Positions 1,324-44,930 of a DNA stretch of 64,000 nucleotides are shown piece after piece. Origin of the DNA: Herbaspirillum hiltneri N3 (GTDB taxonomy: Bacteria > Pseudomonadota > Gammaproteobacteria > Burkholderiales > Burkholderiaceae_D); the NCBI RefSeq assembly GCF_001267925.1, contig NZ_CP011409.1, forward strand, positions 186,001 to 250,000. The letters are read 5' to 3'. Both the position numbers and the translations under genes were made by a program. Positions within the stretch are counted from its first letter, which is position 1. The number at the start of each line of letters is the position of its first letter. The notes beneath the pieces are model-generated. The model did not search any database and was not told the DNA's origin. It saw nothing but the letters and a program-made list of their open reading frames with translations.

Positions 1324-2289
1324 ATGATTAATGTTTTTGTTTTGCAGAACGGTCGACTGAACCAGGTCAATATCGACAGCCGCAGCGATCTGGAAACGAT
1401 TGCGCCGGTGTGGGTCGACCTGACCGAGCCGACCGACGACGAGCGTGCCTGGGTCAAGAGCATCTACGGCGTGACGCTGCCAGACGAAGACGAATTCAGC
1501 GACATCGAAGCCTCGGCGCGCTATTTCGAAGCCGAGAACGGCGACCTCCACCTGCGCACCGATTTCCTGTTCGAAGGCGACGACGACACCTCGGCCACCA
1601 TGACGGTAGCCTTCATCCTGGCGCGCAATATCCTGTTTTCAGTGCATGCCGAAGACTTGCCGGTGTTTCGCCTGGTGCGCATGCGCGCCCGTTCGCGTCC
1701 CGGTTCGATCGGCGACTACCGCGACGTGCTGCTGGACCTGTACGAAACCGACGCCGAGTATTCGGCCGATGCGCTCGAAGGGATTTACCAGAAGCTCGAA
1801 GCGGTCAGCCACAGCGTGCTCAAGAAAAGCCTGTCCGACCAGGCTGCCGCCGAAGTGCTCAACACCATCGCCCACGAAGAAGACTTGAACGGCCGCATCC
1901 GCCGCAACATGATGGATACGCGCCGCGCGGTCAGCTTCCTGATGCGCGGCCGCCTGCTCAGCGCGGACCAGTTCGAGGACGCGCGCCAGATTCTGCGCGA
2001 CATCGAATCGCTGGACGGCCACACCGCCTTCCTGTTCGACAAGATCAACTTCCTGATGGACGCCACCGTCGGTTTCATCAACATCAACCAGAACAAGATC
2101 ATCAAGATCTTCTCGGTGGCCTCGGTCGCCTTCCTGCCGCCGACGCTGATCGCCAGCATCTACGGCATGAACTTCGACTGGATGCCGGAGCTGCATTGGG
2201 GTGGCGGCTACCCGCTGGCGATTGCGATGATGATCGGTTCGGCGATCGCGCCGTTCTGGTACTTCCGCCGGCGCGGCTGGCTGAACTGA
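1324..2289 (+). CDS. corA: CorA family magnesium/divalent cation channel
   Basis: A 321-residue protein with the CorA layout: a large N-terminal cytoplasmic domain rich in acidic residues, a long helical stalk (about residues 150-260), then two C-terminal membrane segments. The selectivity-filter signature YGMNFDWMPELHW lies between the two, i.e. the GMN motif with the acidic periplasmic loop. The C-terminus is short and basic (FRRRGWLN), as expected inside the cell. It should form a pentameric Mg2+ channel (Co2+/Ni2+ also possible). It stands alone, with a 200-base gap after mtgA and a convergent binding-protein gene downstream. No riboswitch was recognised in its short leader. Confidence 0.93.
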   Translation: MINVFVLQNGRLNQVNIDSRSDLETIAPVWVDLTEPTDDERAWVKSIYGVTLPDEDEFSDIEASARYFEAENGDLHLRTDFLFEGDDDTSATMTVAFILARNILFSVHAEDLPVFRLVRMRARSRPGSIGDYRDVLLDLYETDAEYSADALEGIYQKLEAVSHSVLKKSLSDQAAAEVLNTIAHEEDLNGRIRRNMMDTRRAVSFLMRGRLLSADQFEDARQILRDIESLDGHTAFLFDKINFLMDATVGFININQNKIIKIFSVASVAFLPPTLIASIYGMNFDWMPELHWGGGYPLAIAMMIGSAIAPFWYFRRRGWLN

Positions 2290-31569: not shown

Positions 31570-31663
31570 CAACTAGTCGAAATTTGTGATGTCACGGGCC
31601 GGATTATGGGTGTAGAATCCGGCCCACGACGTTTGAAACTGAACGTGGTAAGAGAACAAATGC

Positions 31664-33752
<2,089 letters not shown>

Positions 33753-38225: not shown

Positions 38226-38408
38226 GTTGGACGTAAGAGGAGGGCGAGCAGGAGGGCAAGCGGCGGCGATGCCGTGATACCGTGTTGCCGTGCAGAATTT
38301 TACGCCGTTTGACGGAAACCTGCCGGCGGCGCGGGATTTCGGCGGGCCGGCGGGGCCGCGCCAAGCCGGAATATGCAGGCTGCGCGCATCCGCGATGACG
38401 TGCGGACG

Positions 38409-38414
38409 TATAAT
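38409..38414 (+). promoter_or_regulatory. Perfect -10 hexamer just before the uvrD-like start codon
   Basis: TATAAT occupies 38409-38414, six bases before ATG 38421. A sigma-70 start from this hexamer would fall at or next to the A of the ATG. No good -35 is visible at 17 bases upstream (GCATCC). Confidence 0.45.
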
Positions 38415-38420
38415 CGCGGG

Positions 38421-40718
38421 ATGCAAAATCTTCTCCACAATCTCAACGCCGAGCAGCTTGCCGCCGTCACCCTTCCCGCACAATCCGCACTGATCCTAGC
38501 CGGCGCCGGTTCGGGCAAGACGCGCGTGCTGACCACGCGCATCGCGTGGCTGATCCAGACCGGGCAAGTGTCGCCTTCGGGCATCCTGGCGGTGACGTTT
38601 ACCAACAAGGCGGCCAAGGAAATGACCGCGCGCCTGTCGGCGATGATGCCGATCAACACGCGCGGCATGTGGATCGGCACCTTCCACGGCCTGTGCAACC
38701 GCCTGCTGCGCGCGCATCACCGCGACGCCGCGTTGCCGCAGACTTTCCAGATCCTCGACTCGCAGGATCAACTGTCGGCCATCAAGCGTCTGCTCAAACA
38801 GATGAACGTGGACGACGAGAAGTATCCGCCGCGCAATCTGATGTACTTCATCAACGGCGCCAAGGACCAGGGCCTGCGCGCCAAGGACGTCGAGGCGCAT
38901 GACGACTACAACCGCAAGTTCGTCGAGCTCTACGACCTGTATGACCAGCAATGCCAGCGCGAAGGCGTGGTCGATTTTGCCGAGCTGCTGTTGCGCACCT
39001 ATGAACTGCTGTCGCGCAACCAGCCGTTGCGCGAGCATTACCAGCGCCGCTTCCGCCACGTGCTGGTGGATGAGTTCCAGGACACCAACGACCTGCAGTA
39101 CAAGTGGCTCAAGATCATGTCCGGCCAGGGCCAGGTCGACGGCGGCGCGGTGTTTGCGGTGGGCGACGACGATCAGAGCATCTATGCATTCCGCGGCGCC
39201 AATGTCGGCAACATGACGGCGTTCGAGCGCGAGTTCCGCGTGCAGAACCTGATCAAGCTGGAGCAGAACTACCGCTCGCACGGCCACATCCTCGACGCCG
39301 CCAACATCCTGATCGCCAACAACAGTAAGCGCCTCGGCAAGAATCTGCGCACCGACGCCGGCCATGGCGAGCAGGTGCGCGTGTTCGAAGCGAGCAGCGA
39401 TCTGCAGGAAGCGCAATGGATCATCGAGCAGGTCAAGAACCTGATCGCCGAAGGCTGGGCGCGCAGCGAGATCGCCTTGCTGTATCGTTCCAATGCGCAG
39501 TCGCGGGTGCTCGAGCATGCCTTGTTTTCGTCGGCGATTCCGTATCGCGTGTACGGCGGCCAGCGCTTCTTCGAGCGTGCCGAAGTCAAGCACGCAATCG
39601 CGTATCTGCAGCTGATGGACAATCTGCACAACGACTCGGCGTTCCTGCGCGTGGTGAACTTCCCTACGCGCGGCATCGGCGCCAAGGCGCTGGAGCAATT
39701 GCAGGATGCTGCGCGCCAGTACAACTGCTCGCTGTATGCGGCGGTGCCTTACGTGGCGGGCAAGGCCGGTTCGACGCTCAACGGTTTCGTCAAGCTGATC
39801 GAAGCCGCGCGTTTTGAAACGCAGAATCTGCCCTTGCAGGAAATGGTGCAGGTGGTGCTCGACAGCAGCGGTTTGCTGACGCACTACCGCAACGAGAAAG
39901 AGGGCGCCGACCGCATCGAGAATCTGGAGCAGCTGGTCAGCGCCGCGACCTTGTTCGTCTCGGAAGAAGGCTACGGCCTGGATGCGCCTGCCTTCCTGGG
40001 ACCGCAGGCGCAAGCCGTTGCCGGCACGTCCATCACGACCGCCGACGGTATCGAGATCATCGACGCCGACGCCGCGCTGACGACCATCATGTCGCCCCTG
40101 TCGGCCTTCCTCTCGCATGCATCGCTGGAAGCCGGCGACAACCAGGCGCAGGCCGGGCAGGATGCTTTGCAACTGATGACCGTGCACTCGGCCAAGGGAC
40201 TGGAGTTCGACGCGGTGTTCATTACCGGGTTGGAGGAGGGCTTGTTCCCGCACGAGAACAGTGCCAAGGAAGAGGGCGGCGTGGAAGAAGAGCGGCGCCT
40301 GATGTACGTGGCCATCACGCGCGCGCGCAAGCGGTTGTACATGAGTTTTTCCCAGACGCGCATGCTGCATGGCCAGACGCGTTACAACATGCGCTCACGC
40401 TTCTTTGACGAACTCCCGGACGAGTCCATCAAGTGGCTTTCGCCGAAGATTCAGCCGCAGCAGCACAGCTGGTTTGCGCATCCCAAGTCGGCCTGGGACG
40501 CTGCGCCGGAATCCGGCAACAACAAGATCGCACAAAACTTTTCGCGGCCGGATTCCGGATGGCGGATCGGGCAGAATGTGGCGCATGCCAAGTTTGGCGA
40601 GGGGGTGATCGTCAATATCGAAGGCGGCGGGGGGAGTACGCGGGCGCATATCAACTTCGGGAAGTTCGGGATGAAGTTGCTGGATTTGAGTGTGGCGAAG
40701 TTGGATAAGGTGGGGTGA
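38421..40718 (+). CDS. uvrD: UvrD/PcrA-type superfamily 1 DNA helicase
   Basis: A 765-residue 3'-5' helicase. Walker A is [20 protein letters not shown] near residue 25; motif Ia is [19 protein letters not shown]; motif II is [19 protein letters not shown]; motif III is [16 protein letters not shown]; motif IV is [12 protein letters not shown]; motifs V-VI are [19 protein letters not shown] and [17 protein letters not shown]. The C-terminus has the Tudor-like piece [19 protein letters not shown] found in PcrA/UvrD. All motifs are intact. It should act in mismatch and excision repair. The in-frame upstream ATG at 38373 lacks a ribosome site. Confidence 0.94.
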
Positions 40719-40809
40719 GTTCTTGTCGGTTGTTCCGACGGACTTGTCTTATCTACCTAAATCTTTTCTTTCTTCGGACGACCGTGGTTGCCGGGGGCGG
40801 CCCGGCAGC

Positions 40810-40980
40810 CGCTCACTTTCTTTGCTTCGCCAAAGAAAGTAAGCAAAGAAAGGCGACCGCGATTCGCCGCCCCTTCGGGGTACCCGTTGGTGCCGTACTC
40901 AAATCGGGAAGGGAAACAAACTCGCTGCGCTCAGACAAGTTTCCCTTCTTTATCCGATTTGAGTACGGCACCAACGGCGA
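40810..40980 (+). repeat. Structured intergenic repeat, copy A
   Basis: Two hairpins joined by a conserved linker. Hairpin 1: ACTTTCTTTG (40815-40824) pairs with CAAAGAAAGT (40831-40840). Linker: AAGCAAAGAAAGGCGACCGC (40841-40860). Hairpin 2: a 33-base left arm (40885-40917) pairs with 40939-40976, with a five-base bulge (TTTAT), around a loop AAACTCGCTGCGCTCAGACAA. The 60-base core 40901-40960 recurs, inverted, at 41171-41230. Confidence 0.8.
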
Positions 40981-41159
40981 CTCATAAGCGGAACTTCTTT
41001 CTCGGCTCGCTTCGCATTGCCTTGGGGGGGCTCGCCTTCGGCATCGTGATTGCCATCTTTGGTTTGATTGATAGCGGAGAACTGTGGCTTTCACTCCACC
41101 TCCATCCCCTGGCGACGCGCAGCGAGCCAGTCTGGCCGTCCGCTTGCGAGTAGCCGGTG

Positions 41160-41325
41160 GCGGCAGGTGCAAATCGGATAAAGAGGGGAAACTTGTCTGA
41201 GCGCAGCGAGTTTGTTTCCCCTCCCGATTTGCGCCTGACGACGCCGGGAACCCCCGGCAGGGGGCTACGAACCAGCGGTCGCTTCTTTTGCTTACTTTTC
41301 TTGGCGAGACAAGAAAAGTGAGTAG
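41160..41325 (-). repeat. Structured intergenic repeat, copy B (inverted)
   Basis: Read on the minus strand it repeats copy A: hairpin 1 ACTTTTCTTG/CAAGAAAAGT (41294-41319 on the plus strand), the linker with GCGACCGC, and hairpin 2 with the core at 41171-41230. The 60-base core differs from copy A at two positions only, and these two pair with each other. The outer arms of hairpin 2 differ in sequence from copy A but still pair with each other (GCAAATCGG with CCGATTTGC, extended by CAGGT/GCCTG with one mismatch). Confidence 0.8.
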
Positions 41326-41413
41326 CTGCCGGGCTACCCCCGGCGAAGGGTTGATCGAAGAAAAAAATCCAAATTACCGAAGAACCACCAGTCGGAACAA
41401 AACAAAAAAGCGC

Positions 41414-42316
41414 TCAGCGATTAACCAGCTCCTGCACCTCATCCCAGGTCGCCGCATAAGCCCCCGCCCGCGCCGCCGACAACGCCGCCGCCGCAGCAGC
41501 ACACTGCAAATGCGTCACCACCGGCGCATCCGCCTGACGCAAGATGCTGGCGATCCAGCCTCCCATGGAAGCATCGCCGCAACCGACGGTATCAATCACC
41601 TCCACCCGATAAGCCGCTTGATCGACAACGCTCTCTCCCTTGATCCAGGACAGCCCATCGGCTCCACGCGTGAACAGGATCTCCGCCTGCGGCGCCAGCG
41701 ACTTCAGCGTCGCCATCGGCTGCGCATCGTCAGGGAATAATTTCTCCAGATCTTCGTCCGACACCTTCACGTAATGCGATAACGCCAGCAGCTTGCGCAT
41801 CAGCACGTGATAGCCGGGCTGATCCATCAGCTTGCGCCAGTTCGGATCGAAGGCAATGCGCTTGCCGCGTTGCGCGCCTTCGGCGGCAATCGCAAGCAGG
41901 CGAGACGCCAATGGTTCGCGCGTCAGGCTGATGCAGCCGAAGTGCAATATGCGCGCTTCATCCATCCAGCCGGAAGGCAACTTGCTCGGATCGAAATGCA
42001 GGTCGGCGCTGTCGTCGCCGACGAAGAAATAATCGGGCGGCGTGGTTGACGTCACCATGGCCAGCAGCGGCGATTTGTCGACTTGCTGGAGGTAGCGCAT
42101 GTCGAGTCCCGCCTCTTGCGTGAGCACGCGCAATTCTTCGCCGAAGACGTCGCTGCTGACGCTGCCGGCATAACCGGTCGCCGCGCCAAGACGCGCGCCG
42201 ACGCGCGCGACGTTCCAGCAGGCGCCTCCGGGCAGGGCGCGCCACTCGCCGCCGGGCTGGCGAATGAAGTCGGTCAGGGCTTCGCCGAAGACGACGAATT
42301 CGATGGGATGCGGCAT
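41414..42316 (-). CDS. PfkB family sugar kinase (probable fructokinase of the polyol locus)
   Basis: A 300-residue ribokinase-fold kinase. It begins FVVFGEALTDFIRQPGGEW, has PGGACWNVARVGARLGAATGYAG (shown in part as GGACWNVARVGARLG) and ends with the anion-hole and catalytic-base motif IDTVGCGDASMGGWIASIL (usually DTxGAGD; the second Gly-Ala-Gly appears as Gly-Cys-Gly). By position and by analogy with MtlZ of the Pseudomonas mtl operon it is probably a fructokinase that takes fructose made from mannitol or sorbitol; the sequence alone does not fix the sugar. It lies 53 bases downstream of the SorC-type regulator gene, on the same strand. Confidence 0.85.
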   Translation of the reverse strand: MPHPIEFVVFGEALTDFIRQPGGEWRALPGGACWNVARVGARLGAATGYAGSVSSDVFGEELRVLTQEAGLDMRYLQQVDKSPLLAMVTSTTPPDYFFVGDDSADLHFDPSKLPSGWMDEARILHFGCISLTREPLASRLLAIAAEGAQRGKRIAFDPNWRKLMDQPGYHVLMRKLLALSHYVKVSDEDLEKLFPDDAQPMATLKSLAPQAEILFTRGADGLSWIKGESVVDQAAYRVEVIDTVGCGDASMGGWIASILRQADAPVVTHLQCAAAAAALSAARAGAYAATWDEVQELVNR

Positions 42317-42369
42317 AAATGTCTCCGTAATGCTGATGCTGAAATTGTTGTTCTGGCGCTGCGCGGAAT

Positions 42370-43338
42370 TTAATCCTGCAACGCAAATTGCGCGCAGTAC
42401 TCGTCGGTGACGAGACCCGTCAGCCAGCCGCCGCGCAAGGCGCCGCGCACCGCTTCGGCTTTCTTGCGACCGCCTGCCAGCGCGATGACCGGCTTGGGCG
42501 GCGGCGAGGTGAGCGGCGGGGTGGTGATGCGCGCGGCCAGCGGCGAACGGAGCATGTTGCCGGCGGCGTCGAAGGCGTGGCAGATCAGTTCGCCGACCGC
42601 GCCTTGATTTTGCAGCTGCGCGACTTCGTCGTCGTCGATGAAGCCGTCTTCATGCATCGCGCCTTGCAATGCAATCGTGCCGATGCCGAGGAAGGTGACG
42701 TCGGCGCGTTGCGCCAGGCCGGTGACGATCTGGTAGGCGCGATGGTTGCACCACTGCTTGCGGTCGGCTTCGCTTTCCGCCACGCGCGGCGCCGGCAAGA
42801 GGTAAAAGCGGCTCTGCATTTTTTCAGCGGCGAGCAGGGCGACGTCGTAGCGGTTGGCGGAACCGTCGGAAGCGAAGGCGCCGATCATCGAGACGATCTG
42901 GTGCTGCGGGCGTTCCATGTCGCTGATCTTTTCAATTGCGGCCTTGAGCGTGCGACCCGAGCCGACGTTGACGATCAGCGGTTCTTCCTGCCGCAGGTAT
43001 TGTTCCATCAACTCGGCGCCGGCGACCGCCAGCATCTGTTGCACACCGTGTGCATCATCCCCGGCCGCGGCGTCATTGCCCGTGTTGCCGGGCACCACGC
43101 GGCAGACGTCCAATCCGTAGCGCTGTTGCAGGCCCTGCGCAAGTTCCAGGCAGGACGAGATCGGATGGGCGATCTGGACCTTGACCAGGTTCGACGCGCC
43201 GGCGTAGGCCACCATGCGCTGCGCCATCTGGCGCGAAATGCCGAGGCGCTCGGCGATTTCATTCTGGGTGTTGCCGGCGACGTAATACATCCATGCGGCG
43301 CGCGCCGCCAGATCGAGTTTGGATGGGCTGGATGACAT
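42370..43338 (-). CDS. SorC/DeoR-type sugar-binding transcriptional regulator
   Basis: A 322-residue regulator. The helix-turn-helix at residues ~24-45 reads NTQNEIAERLGISRQMAQRM; the rest is the SorC effector domain with IVNVGSGRTLKAAIEKISDM, FYLLPAPRVAES, VTFLGIGTIALQGAMHEDGF and the final VIALAGGRKKAEAVRGALRG (sugar-phosphate-binding). It is divergent from the polyol transport operon and probably controls it through the 257-base shared promoter region. Known mtl operons of Pseudomonas use an AraC-type activator (MtlR) instead. Confidence 0.9.
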   Translation of the reverse strand: MSSSPSKLDLAARAAWMYYVAGNTQNEIAERLGISRQMAQRMVAYAGASNLVKVQIAHPISSCLELAQGLQQRYGLDVCRVVPGNTGNDAAAGDDAHGVQQMLAVAGAELMEQYLRQEEPLIVNVGSGRTLKAAIEKISDMERPQHQIVSMIGAFASDGSANRYDVALLAAEKMQSRFYLLPAPRVAESEADRKQWCNHRAYQIVTGLAQRADVTFLGIGTIALQGAMHEDGFIDDDEVAQLQNQGAVGELICHAFDAAGNMLRSPLAARITTPPLTSPPPKPVIALAGGRKKAEAVRGALRGGWLTGLVTDEYCAQFALQD

Positions 43339-43450
43339 CGGTTTTCCTTGTTGTGAACCTGCCGCGTCGCGCTGGCCGATCCGGCATTGTACGGACTTTG
43401 AGCGCCTGTTCCTGCGGGACGTCAGACGTCATTATTATCAAAATTGAACA

Positions 43451-43528
43451 TTTGCTCAACAAAAAAGCAAATGCTTGACAATCTTTCGTCAATGTTTGAT
43501 TATTTGCTCGCAAACAGATTTTTTGCTC
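43451..43528. promoter_or_regulatory. Probable operators of the polyol locus: three TTTGCTC direct repeats
   Basis: TTTGCTC occurs at 43451-43457, 43503-43509 and 43522-43528 in the AT-rich divergent region, and an inverted relative (AAAGCAAATGCTT) lies at 43465-43477. The repeats bracket the promoter at 43475-43503. Their position suggests binding by the adjacent SorC-type regulator. Confidence 0.45.
43475..43503 (+). promoter_or_regulatory. Probable sigma-70 promoter of the polyol transport operon
   Basis: A perfect -35 TTGACA (43475-43480) and, 17 bases on, GATTAT (43498-43503, four of six matches to TATAAT). Transcription would start near 43510, about 85 bases before the binding-protein ATG. 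Confidence 0.6.
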
Positions 43529-43595
43529 AGAAAACTACATCGAGGCGAGGAAGGCGGCAACGCTCATCCTCAGCCCGTACACAATGGAGACAAGC

Positions 43596-44930
43596 ATGAA
43601 ACTTCGCGCCCCCGCATTTCCCTTGGCACGCCTTGCTGCCGCTATCGCCGTATTCGGTTTCGCCGGTCTTGCCGCTGCCGATCCCGTTACCCTGAACATC
43701 GCCTCGATCAACAACCCCGACATGATCGAACTGCAAAAGCTGTCGCCGCAGTTCGAAAAAGCCAATCCCGACATCAAGCTGCGCTGGGTCACGATGGAGG
43801 AGAGCGTGCTGCGCCAGCGCCTGACCACCGATATCGCCACCAACAGCGGCCAGTTCGACCTCATGACCATCGGGGCGTACGAAGCGCCGATCTGGGCCAA
43901 GAAGGGATGGCTGGCGCCGATGACCGGCTTGCCCGCCGATTACGATGAAGCCGACCTGATCAAGACCGTGCGCGAAGGCTTGACCAGCGACGGCAAGCTG
44001 TACGCGCTGCCGTTCTATGCGGAAAGCTCGATGACCTATTACCGCAAGGACCTGTTCGCGCAAAAGAACCTGAAGATGCCGGAAAAGCCGACCTGGGAAG
44101 AGATCGGCAAGCTGGCGGCGCAACTGCATGATCCGGCCAAGGGTGTCTACGGCATCTGCCTGCGCGGACGCGCCGGCTGGGGCGAAAACATGGCGCTGGT
44201 CGGCACCATGGTCAATGCTTACGGCGGCCGCTGGTTCGATGAAAAATGGCAGCCGCAGCTCGATACGCCGGAATGGAAACAGGCCGTCAATTTCTACGTC
44301 GACCTGATGCGCAAATCCGGTCCGCCGGGTGCCAGCTCCAACGGTTTCAATGAAAACCTGGTGCTGTTCTCGGGCGGCAAATGCGGCATGTGGGTAGACG
44401 CCACCGTCGCCGCCGGCATGCTGTATCACGGCAAGGATTCCAAGGTGTCCGACAAGGTCGCGTTCGCGCCGGCGCCGATGGCGACCACCGACAAGGGATC
44501 GCATTGGTTGTGGATCTGGTCGCTGGCGGTGCCGAAGTCGTCCAAGTCGCAGGACGCCGCGAAGAAGTTCGCCGCCTGGGCGACTTCCAGGGACTACATC
44601 AAGCTGGTCGCCAAGGATAGCGGCTGGGCATTGGTGCCGCCGGGTACGCGCACCTCGACCTATGCTTCCGCCGAGTACAAGAAGGCGTCGCCATTCTCCG
44701 ACTTCGTCCTCGACGCGATCGAGAAGGCCGATGCCAACAATCCGACGCTCAAACCGGTGCCTTACACAGGCATCCAGTTTGCGACGATTCCCGAGTTCCA
44801 GTCGATCGGCACCATCGCCGGCCAGGCGATTGCCGGTGCGCTGGCCGGCAAGGGCACCGCAGACGCTGCGCTGAAGACGGCACAGGCGCAGACTGTGCGC
44901 ATGATGAAGCAGGGGCGTTACATCAAGTAA
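43596..44930 (+). CDS. Polyol (sorbitol/mannitol-type) ABC transporter substrate-binding protein
   Basis: A 444-residue family 1 solute-binding protein, equivalent to MtlE/SmoE. It has a signal peptide (LAAAIAVFGFAGLAAA), then VTLNIASINNPDMIELQKLS, LYALPFYAESSMTYYRKDLF, RAGWGENMALVGTMVNAYGG, MWVDATVAAGMLYHGKDSKV and PVPYTGIQFATIPEFQSIGT, a pattern typical of polyol-binding members. ATG 43596 is chosen because GGAG is six bases upstream; ATG 43584 lies within that ribosome site. First gene of the rightward operon, 125 bases before the first permease. A paralogue lies at 51839-53188. Confidence 0.92.
   Translation: MKLRAPAFPLARLAAAIAVFGFAGLAAADPVTLNIASINNPDMIELQKLSPQFEKANPDIKLRWVTMEESVLRQRLTTDIATNSGQFDLMTIGAYEAPIWAKKGWLAPMTGLPADYDEADLIKTVREGLTSDGKLYALPFYAESSMTYYRKDLFAQKNLKMPEKPTWEEIGKLAAQLHDPAKGVYGICLRGRAGWGENMALVGTMVNAYGGRWFDEKWQPQLDTPEWKQAVNFYVDLMRKSGPPGASSNGFNENLVLFSGGKCGMWVDATVAAGMLYHGKDSKVSDKVAFAPAPMATTDKGSHWLWIWSLAVPKSSKSQDAAKKFAAWATSRDYIKLVAKDSGWALVPPGTRTSTYASAEYKKASPFSDFVLDAIEKADANNPTLKPVPYTGIQFATIPEFQSIGTIAGQAIAGALAGKGTADAALKTAQAQTVRMMKQGRYIK

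Follow-up and report, generated by a model that had tools for sequence, protein, structure and literature searches.

Two copies of a two-hairpin element lie head to head in the gap between two convergent genes of Herbaspirillum hiltneri N3, and the differences between their cores fall on bases that can pair with each other. The locus raises the question whether a DNA structure or an RNA is conserved here, and on which strand. The window analysed is a stretch of 64,000 nucleotides (contig NZ_CP011409.1, positions 186,001 to 250,000 of the forward strand), and plain positions below refer to it.

The inverted pair and its family

The 60-base cores of the two copies (40901-40960 and, as reverse complement, 41171-41230) are identical except for 40910 (A/G) and 40946 (T/C), as a first-pass annotation of this DNA had noted. 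Its further statement that these positions pair with each other is borne out in the genome at large: among 14 distinct own-genome rows the mutually paired columns (104 and 140 of the alignment) read AU in 8 and GC in 6. The exchange of two adjacent pairs in hairpin 1 is likewise present (ACTTTCTTTG/CAAAGAAAGT versus ACTTTTCTTG/CAAGAAAAGT). Absent from that annotation was a third segment after the hairpin, AAAGAAA versus AAAAGAA, which covaries with the hairpin-1 exchange; the GCGACCGC linker that it listed as conserved overlaps one strand of the pseudoknot proposed below. The whole intergenic gap is an inverted repeat, with 116-nt arms that are 80% complementary and 84-nt arms that are 74% complementary. 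Hairpin 2 of both copies folds far below shuffled sequences (z of -5.5 to -11.3 as DNA and -5.9 to -9.8 as RNA). The earlier observation is confirmed, and its interpretation is partly supported. The inverted pair is a single unit (dimer) of a dispersed repeat family, with the following parts and neighbours.

38373..40718, plus strand: left neighbour, UvrD/Rep-type helicase gene, 3' end at the element
40732..41398, no strand: whole dimeric element, with outermost inverted ends GTTCCGAC ... GTCGGAAC; filled versus short sites in relatives
40768..40783, plus strand: left inner terminal repeat CTTTCTTCGGACGACC
40790..40812, minus strand: half A, proposed second pseudoknot, GCGGC-U-GCCGGG-CCGC-C-CCCGGC on the RNA strand; loop/flank pairs covary between copies and genera (by eye)
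40811..40844, minus strand: half A, 14-bp stem S2 (one G-U) and loop, the loop pairing with the 5' flank (S1); covariation
40845..40851, minus strand: half A, candidate third strand X1 (RNA strand UUUCUUU), running parallel to AAAGAAA of the stem; mirror-rule covariation
40852..40858, minus strand: half A, GGUCGCC, 5' strand of S1, whose UCGCC pairs with loop GGCGA; S1 covariation
40869..40881, minus strand: half A, short hairpin GCCCC/GGGG
40884..40977, minus strand: half A, hairpin 2, long covarying stem; covariation and folding
40918..40942, minus strand: half A, apical motif AAACUUGUCUGAGCGCAGCGAGUUU (RNA strand); in relatives the ends are conserved and the inner stem is variable (by eye)
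41006..41015, minus strand: half A, inner GCGAAGCGAG motif
41154..41247, plus strand: half B, hairpin 2
41189..41213, plus strand: half B, apical motif
41249..41266, plus strand: half B, short hairpin
41277..41282, plus strand: half B, S1 5' strand GGUCGC
41283..41289, plus strand: half B, candidate third strand X1, UUCUUUU, changed together with AAGAAAA of its own stem
41290..41323, plus strand: half B, S2 stem-loop GCUUACUUUUCUUG-GCGAGA-CAAGAAAAGUGAGU
41322..41344, plus strand: half B, proposed second pseudoknot GUAGC-U-GCCGGG-CUAC-C-CCCGGC
41349..41363, minus strand: right inner terminal repeat (complement TTTCTTCGATCAACC)
41414..42316, minus strand: right neighbour, PfkB-family sugar kinase gene, 3' end at the element (convergent)

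In the proposed second pseudoknot 62.5% and 84.1% of cells are paired, in an imperfect alignment.

A 541-nt probe recovers 8 full dimers and 4 single halves in the own genome. The covariance-model search that had been recommended for finding more copies (model R1) returns the same 20 halves, together with 20 further matches that are opposite-strand readings of them. Nested inverted repeats are present at the outer ends, and the spacers of the dimers are related to one another. Within the genus R1 matches 31 of 34 genomes, and among 27 further genomes of the family and order it matches 7. At least 120 stretches contain an identical 43-mer from the pseudoknot domain; the genera among the matches listed (80 of the 120 stretches) are Herbaspirillum, Herminiimonas, Undibacterium, Collimonas, Noviherbaspirillum, Variovorax, Polaromonas, Curvibacter, Neisseria, Deefgea, Silvimonas and others. 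A model of the pseudoknot domain (R2) finds matches in 87 of 370 genomes of the class and in 72 of 273 genera; at most 12 candidates per genome were scored, so that copy numbers are lower bounds. Phage records contain no similar sequence at the limit used, and plasmid records contain short pieces only, in five records. At the gathering score Rfam gives nothing in the window except a TPP riboswitch elsewhere (31655-31759, plus strand). Its sub-threshold matches in the gap are mostly to microRNA families, which we take to be an effect of the long hairpins. A published description of the repeat family was not found in one open literature library, outside which most subscription papers lie, and six 14-16-nt pieces of the element do not occur in the open-library papers searched.

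With regard to sites and REARRANGEMENT, the long element may be absent from orthologous gaps of relatives. At sites without it, genome G005 keeps a short outer-end palindrome in three cases, and no such palindrome is kept at the one site examined in each of G001 and G009. One orthologous gap of G031 contains a single half. A short form is also present in the own genome (G000:C1:1298030-1298083), a palindrome with the terminal repeats of the element and no R1 halves. Terminal inverted repeats are present, and the flanks at sites without the long element align too poorly for a target duplication to be read. One widely spaced pair (L150) is a possible autonomous form. In a comparison with G030, among 10 elements with both flanks tested, L002, L005 and L012 keep both flanks among the matches listed, and neighbours are re-paired at 7 of the 10, a pattern like that expected of inversions with breakpoints at the elements. 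The 2900 bases at 40770-43669 are 100% identical to G000:C1:2500258-2503157 (L027 10259-13158), which may reflect a recent duplication or an assembly error. This duplicate has its left end in an element and its right end within a solute-binding-protein gene; at that point the other copy continues into a different ORF, which looks like pnuC. A second segmental duplication (L030 9816-13248 and L031 7204-10634; 3.4 kb, 99.7%, inverted) also ends in an element and contains a 557-codon ORF and a gene that by eye is LysR-like.

Covariation and the folded strand

The first-pass annotation had suggested that the folded form is what is conserved, and this holds beyond the two copies, in the Watson-Crick covariation as well as in that of S1 and the third strand. 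It had named arm changes that do not compensate each other, or a lack of further copies, as observations that would speak against a selected structure. What we find is 20 halves in the genome and, in the alignment of the 14 distinct own-genome rows (A1, from which the duplicated segments L001 and L010 are excluded), 13 of 48 pairs changed on both sides, which together greatly exceeds what chance would give. The covariation score of A1 (0.180) is reached by none of 500 shuffles, and structures slid along the alignment give at most 0.080; the number of pair types is 18, against a higher 21.6 in the shuffles. In a second alignment of 62 diverse halves (A4, made of 61 of 104 diverse halves and one own half) the corresponding count is 17 of 26 pairs, with a covariation of 0.305, compared with 0.135 for shuffles and no more than 0.108 for slid structures. 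The script behind A4 selected stem arms that pair perfectly over 8 bp or more, together with a GGNCGCC-type anchor followed by TT, and its stem and anchor counts are favoured because intact stems and anchors were selected. Overall, the covariation among the aligned sequences is strong.

On a tree the majority of pair changes are reconstructed as one-step changes of both bases, with 234 double events from one Watson-Crick pair to another. Such a pattern would also arise if template switching between the arms matched them without any selection. However, template switching cannot make the mirror (non-inverted) X1/X3 matches, the strand-asymmetric wobble or the S1 pairing described below, and the mirror covariation led us to rule it out as the sole cause. 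Mutational compensation of this kind is highly improbable as the explanation of the structure, and it may add to the turnover of the hairpin-2 arms.

The types of mismatch point to the strand that is folded. The strand counts, the tree and the comparison of folding with shuffles use the first 103 of 150 rows of a third alignment (A3; 86 distinct halves, at least 88 bits); one search covered 99 of the loci. Read on the strand drawn in the first-pass annotation, the paired cells of the 86 halves comprise 3762 Watson-Crick pairs, 123 A-C, 66 other mismatches and 4 G-U, and tree parsimony gives 48 origins of A-C from Watson-Crick pairs versus 4 of G-U. An A-C cell becomes a G-U wobble when the complementary strand is read, so that this strand is indicated as the folded one, and the strand drawn earlier has to be exchanged for it. 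A cruciform does not predict such an asymmetry, while an RNA or one strand of single-stranded DNA does. Of the two forms that had been offered, RNA or cruciform DNA, this count favours the former. Base composition predicts an A-C excess of only about 1.35 to 1 (an estimate from base counts), and the model, being fitted to the annotated strand, should favour G-U, contrary to the excess found. The lower stem of the pseudoknot domain has 26 G-U versus 2 A-C on the RNA strand in a MAFFT alignment. No G-U bias on that strand is seen in the second pseudoknot (12 G-U versus 14 A-C) or its outer hairpin (11 versus 12), both of which are poorly aligned, and S1 has 0 G-U versus 3 A-C. Three of the 4 G-U cells on the annotated strand are located in the short hairpin. 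In general, setting A-C departures against G-U departures reveals which strand of a palindromic repeat is selected.

The RNA strand also folds better than its complement in all 86 distinct halves; among the other 37 distinct rows of A3, a mixture of other genera and opposite-strand matches, it is better in 27 and worse in 10. The energy difference between the strands averages -14.7 kcal/mol, of which -7.7 is also present in dinucleotide shuffles, and in 32 of the 86 halves the observed difference is reached by at least one of 10 shuffles. About half of the lower folding energy is thus composition.

Single-stranded DNA, if only one strand were concerned, could show the same wobble bias. This would be the case if a transposase (REP/IS200-like or another HUH enzyme) acted on the element and the fold were selected for strand-specific DNA recognition, which would explain the strand asymmetry, the palindromic ends, the spread of copies and the short palindromes at the three G005 sites. 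However, the sense bias of the element to genes, described below, is not expected from such a substrate, and the presence of Y1 transposases is mismatched with that of the elements. A link to REP-associated transposases, which the first-pass annotation had put up for checking, is not supported: the sole Y1-transposase match in the own genome (PF01797, 390962-391285) has no element beside it, the nearest being at 226800 and 515862, and a RAYT association was dropped. Across 61 genomes the Y1 gene does not track the elements; G040, G055 and G056 have element matches and no Y1 match, while G024, G027 and the incomplete G028 have a Y1 gene and no element match. We consider a transposase substrate decidedly unlikely, and the conserved fold was very probably selected at the level of RNA.

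A putative pseudoknot with a third strand

Read on the RNA strand, the conserved block consists of GG-UCGCC, UUUCUUU, GCUUAC-UUUCUUUG, GCGAAG and CAAAGAAA-GUGAGC. The pyrimidine tract upstream of the stem follows the purine arm of the stem by a parallel rule, A with U and G with C. An arm with AAAGAAA goes with the tract UUUCUUU and an arm with AAGAAAA with UUCUUUU, and this exchange is already exhibited by copies A and B of the window. Other families combine arm AAAAGAAA with tract UUUUCUUU, AAGAGAAA with UUCUCUUU, AAGGAAA with UUCCUUU and AAAAAAA with UUUUUUU. In G049 an A-to-U change of the arm is accompanied by G in the tract (by eye), which corresponds to the known G.TA triplet.

In 40 distinct halves from 28 genomes the rule is obeyed at 230 of 240 positions, and the best of 5000 permutations reaches 218. 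These loci lie outside model building (none of the 42 matches has the first 50 nt of a training row, and one of the 42 was not parsed), and the class loci among them are the best-scoring ones per genome. The matched run is shorter than 5 nt in 7 of the 40 rows. An earlier, unfiltered test, into which unrelated rows were mixed, was weaker, with 108 of 156 positions against a permutation mean of 87.4 and a maximum of 106; its 16 rows with asymmetric X3 gave 76 parallel versus 68 antiparallel matches of 112. Pairing of the GGUCGCC segment with the loop (S1) also changes in concert, for example as UGUCC with GGACA, GUGGCC with GGCCAC and GGCCACC with GGUGGCC. The mean S1 run in the 40 halves is 4.65 bp versus 3.06 bp when permuted, and none of 5000 permutations reaches 4.65. 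In 20 of the 40 rows there is no linker between X1 and the stem and 6 bp lie below the matched zone, and 4 more rows have a 1-nt linker and 5 bp. From A-form geometry, a loop of an H-type pseudoknot crosses the deep groove over 6 bp.

S1, S2 and the third-strand covariation all fall on one strand, in the arrangement of an H-type pseudoknot. This suggests that hairpin 1 and the linker form such a pseudoknot, and that the pyrimidine linker, by tracking the purine arm under the parallel Hoogsteen rule, makes a telomerase-like triple helix. We regard the formation of the triple helix as likely, and the prediction is open to a test by compensatory mutations.

Mirror and inverted symmetry are equally present in the DNA itself, and it is possible to read the element as a DNA-level one, in which an intrastrand DNA triplex (H-DNA or of the BoxC/PIT type) or a cruciform stalls replication and drives rearrangement, with no RNA function. 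Three-arm BoxC/TMECO repeats are known and tied to instability (PMC4666352), and the re-paired flanks and the two duplications that end in elements point in the same direction. Recombination between copies suffices for these rearrangements, and homologous recombination alone explains breakpoints at dispersed repeats. The mismatch asymmetry, in cells as well as in origins, favours one strand. The favoured strand would have the pyrimidine-motif triplex, feasible in RNA, and not the purine motif, which is not (PMC4666352). Moreover, H-DNA does not need the loop-to-flank pairing of S1. A purely DNA-level element is therefore unlikely in our view. Intergenic palindromes that are dispersed in genomes are commonly regarded as features of the DNA; the mismatch asymmetry and the three-way covariation suggest that here one widespread family is kept for its RNA.

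Gene ends, a possible role and known systems

Neighbouring halves less than 1.4 kb apart point outward in 59 of 64 pairs (1 inward, 4 tandem), with a spacing of 342-537 nt in 47 of the 59. Orientation relative to genes was counted for units L214-L333 with ORFs called at both sides by a simple ORF caller. Monomers are sense to the gene 5' of them in 27 of 32 cases, and with co-directional neighbours 16 are sense and 3 antisense (27 of 33, and 16 to 5, in a rougher earlier count). Dimers lie between convergent genes in 15 of 28 cases, between co-directional ones in 11 and between divergent ones in 2.

Such a location at gene ends, with frequent convergent neighbours, would also suit an ordinary bidirectional terminator that has been repeated by recombination, and this would be compatible with an RNA role. 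The gap contains 6 terminator-like hairpins versus 1.5 in shuffles, and four of the six read inward. However, their tails are interrupted T tracts and a continuous U-run is absent, the selected strand reads outward into an RNA whose 3' end is A-rich, and the conserved pseudoknot and third strand far exceed the needs of a terminator. We find this explanation improbable. No sigma-70-like promoter was found within 40700-41420, which speaks against the RNA reading.

Comparative sequence analysis shows the family itself, its Watson-Crick covariation, the choice of strand, the covariation of S1, the parallel covariation of the third strand and the outward arrangement of pairs. A strand-specific fold is thus kept by selection, and it is likely that the element acts as RNA at 3' ends. 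The reading that we favour, and hold to be fairly probable, is that of a dispersed intergenic repeat with a structured RNA as its selected product, which carries hairpin 2, the triplex pseudoknot and the second pseudoknot. In each half the RNA would start at the inner end and run outward, which places it on the minus strand in copy A and on the plus strand in copy B. Its 5' part would be hairpin 2, a long stem with an apical motif and with arms that are free to vary yet stay paired. The middle would be the H-type pseudoknot, in which GG-UCGCC pairs with the hairpin-1 loop GGCGA and UUUCUUU occupies the deep groove of the stem of hairpin 1, forming a U.A-U / C+.G-C triple helix, and the 3' part would be a second small pseudoknot.

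The apical part of hairpin 2 is variable, and some members of the class can have TwoAYGGAY (RF01731) there. In 21 of 30 TwoAYGGAY loci (15 of 20 above the curated cut-off and 6 of 10 below it) the R2 domain lies just 3' on the same strand, two of the 21 being weak matches (E about 0.001-0.002). RF01731 reaches the gathering score in the relatives L350, L358 and L362, and has no match in the window or the own genome (G000). TwoAYGGAY has been proposed to bind CsrA (PMC4333381); the own-genome copies are without AYGGAY loops, so the CsrA link is not transferable to them. In L347 the pseudoknot domain has, close to its 5' side and on its own strand, a sub-threshold match to RsmW, another CsrA-type sRNA (1626-1745, minus strand). 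Through this association an orphan Rfam family would gain a larger context and a reason for its many copies.

The element might be transcribed within 3' UTRs, where the triplex pseudoknot could be a compact cap, or exonuclease roadblock, that shields the RNA 5' of it. Hairpin 2 could then be a mount for protein-binding cargo, with CsrA-type AYGGAY loops in some relatives and another motif here, and the palindromic pair could serve both of two convergent genes. As a function, a cap against 3' exonucleases combined with a cargo-bearing hairpin 2 is a tentative proposal. More speculative still is the broader idea that many transcripts acquire a telomerase-like triple-helix pseudoknot at their 3' ends through the spread of a superfamily of bacterial dispersed repeats. 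The pseudoknot would cap the RNA and display an exchangeable protein-binding hairpin (a CsrA sponge where this is TwoAYGGAY), and the palindromic dimer would let one insertion serve two convergent genes.

Telomerase RNA and the SAM-II riboswitch contain an H-type pseudoknot with a triple helix, and the telomerase pseudoknot has the same topology as the pseudoknot and third strand proposed for the element. In the version predicted for the element, a pyrimidine loop would occupy the deep groove of one stem and work like the telomerase pseudoknot. The element differs in being a dispersed repeat of many copies, with neither a ligand site nor a reverse transcriptase known; we claim a likeness of design and not descent, and homology is not claimed. 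REPs are hairpins of 20-40 nt preceded by a fixed GTAG/GGAG tetranucleotide, whereas the tetranucleotide of the element varies with the loop (GTAG, GCGG, CTAG, CTTG and others; by eye). REP/BIME repeats with RAYT resemble it as palindromic intergenic repeats in alternating orientation (PMC2817692), but the halves of the element are complex, about 260 nt long and 20 per genome, and no RAYT lies beside them in this genome. H-type pseudoknots with a triple helix are also found in SAM-V (PMC6061858) and guanidine-III (PMC5696562) RNAs. TwoAYGGAY (PMC2864571, PMC4333381) lies directly 5' of the same pseudoknot domain on the same strand in the class loci counted above, and its Rfam model comprises CsrA-motif hairpins and a stem without the pseudoknot domain.

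The closest described repeats appear to be BoxC/PIT of enterobacteria, which together with TMECO are linked to instability (PMC4666352). These are G/C-rich, and the work on them concerned a purine-motif DNA triplex of about 35 nt; the available part of that paper describes neither a hairpin-2 domain nor RNA-strand evidence for them, and the word pseudoknot is absent from its text (PMC4666352). The DNA triplex of BoxC/PIT was found in vitro, and no support for its stable formation in vivo was obtained in that study (PMC4666352), and the first two arms of the BoxC pattern CCCTCNCCC N3-6 GGGNGAGGG N3 GGGNGAGGG have 0 matches in the window. What the two have in common is the design of a dispersed intergenic repeat with a pyrimidine arm, a purine arm and a mirror third arm, tied to rearranged loci (PMC4666352), and the three-arm symmetry of an intrastrand triplex is present in the window element as well.
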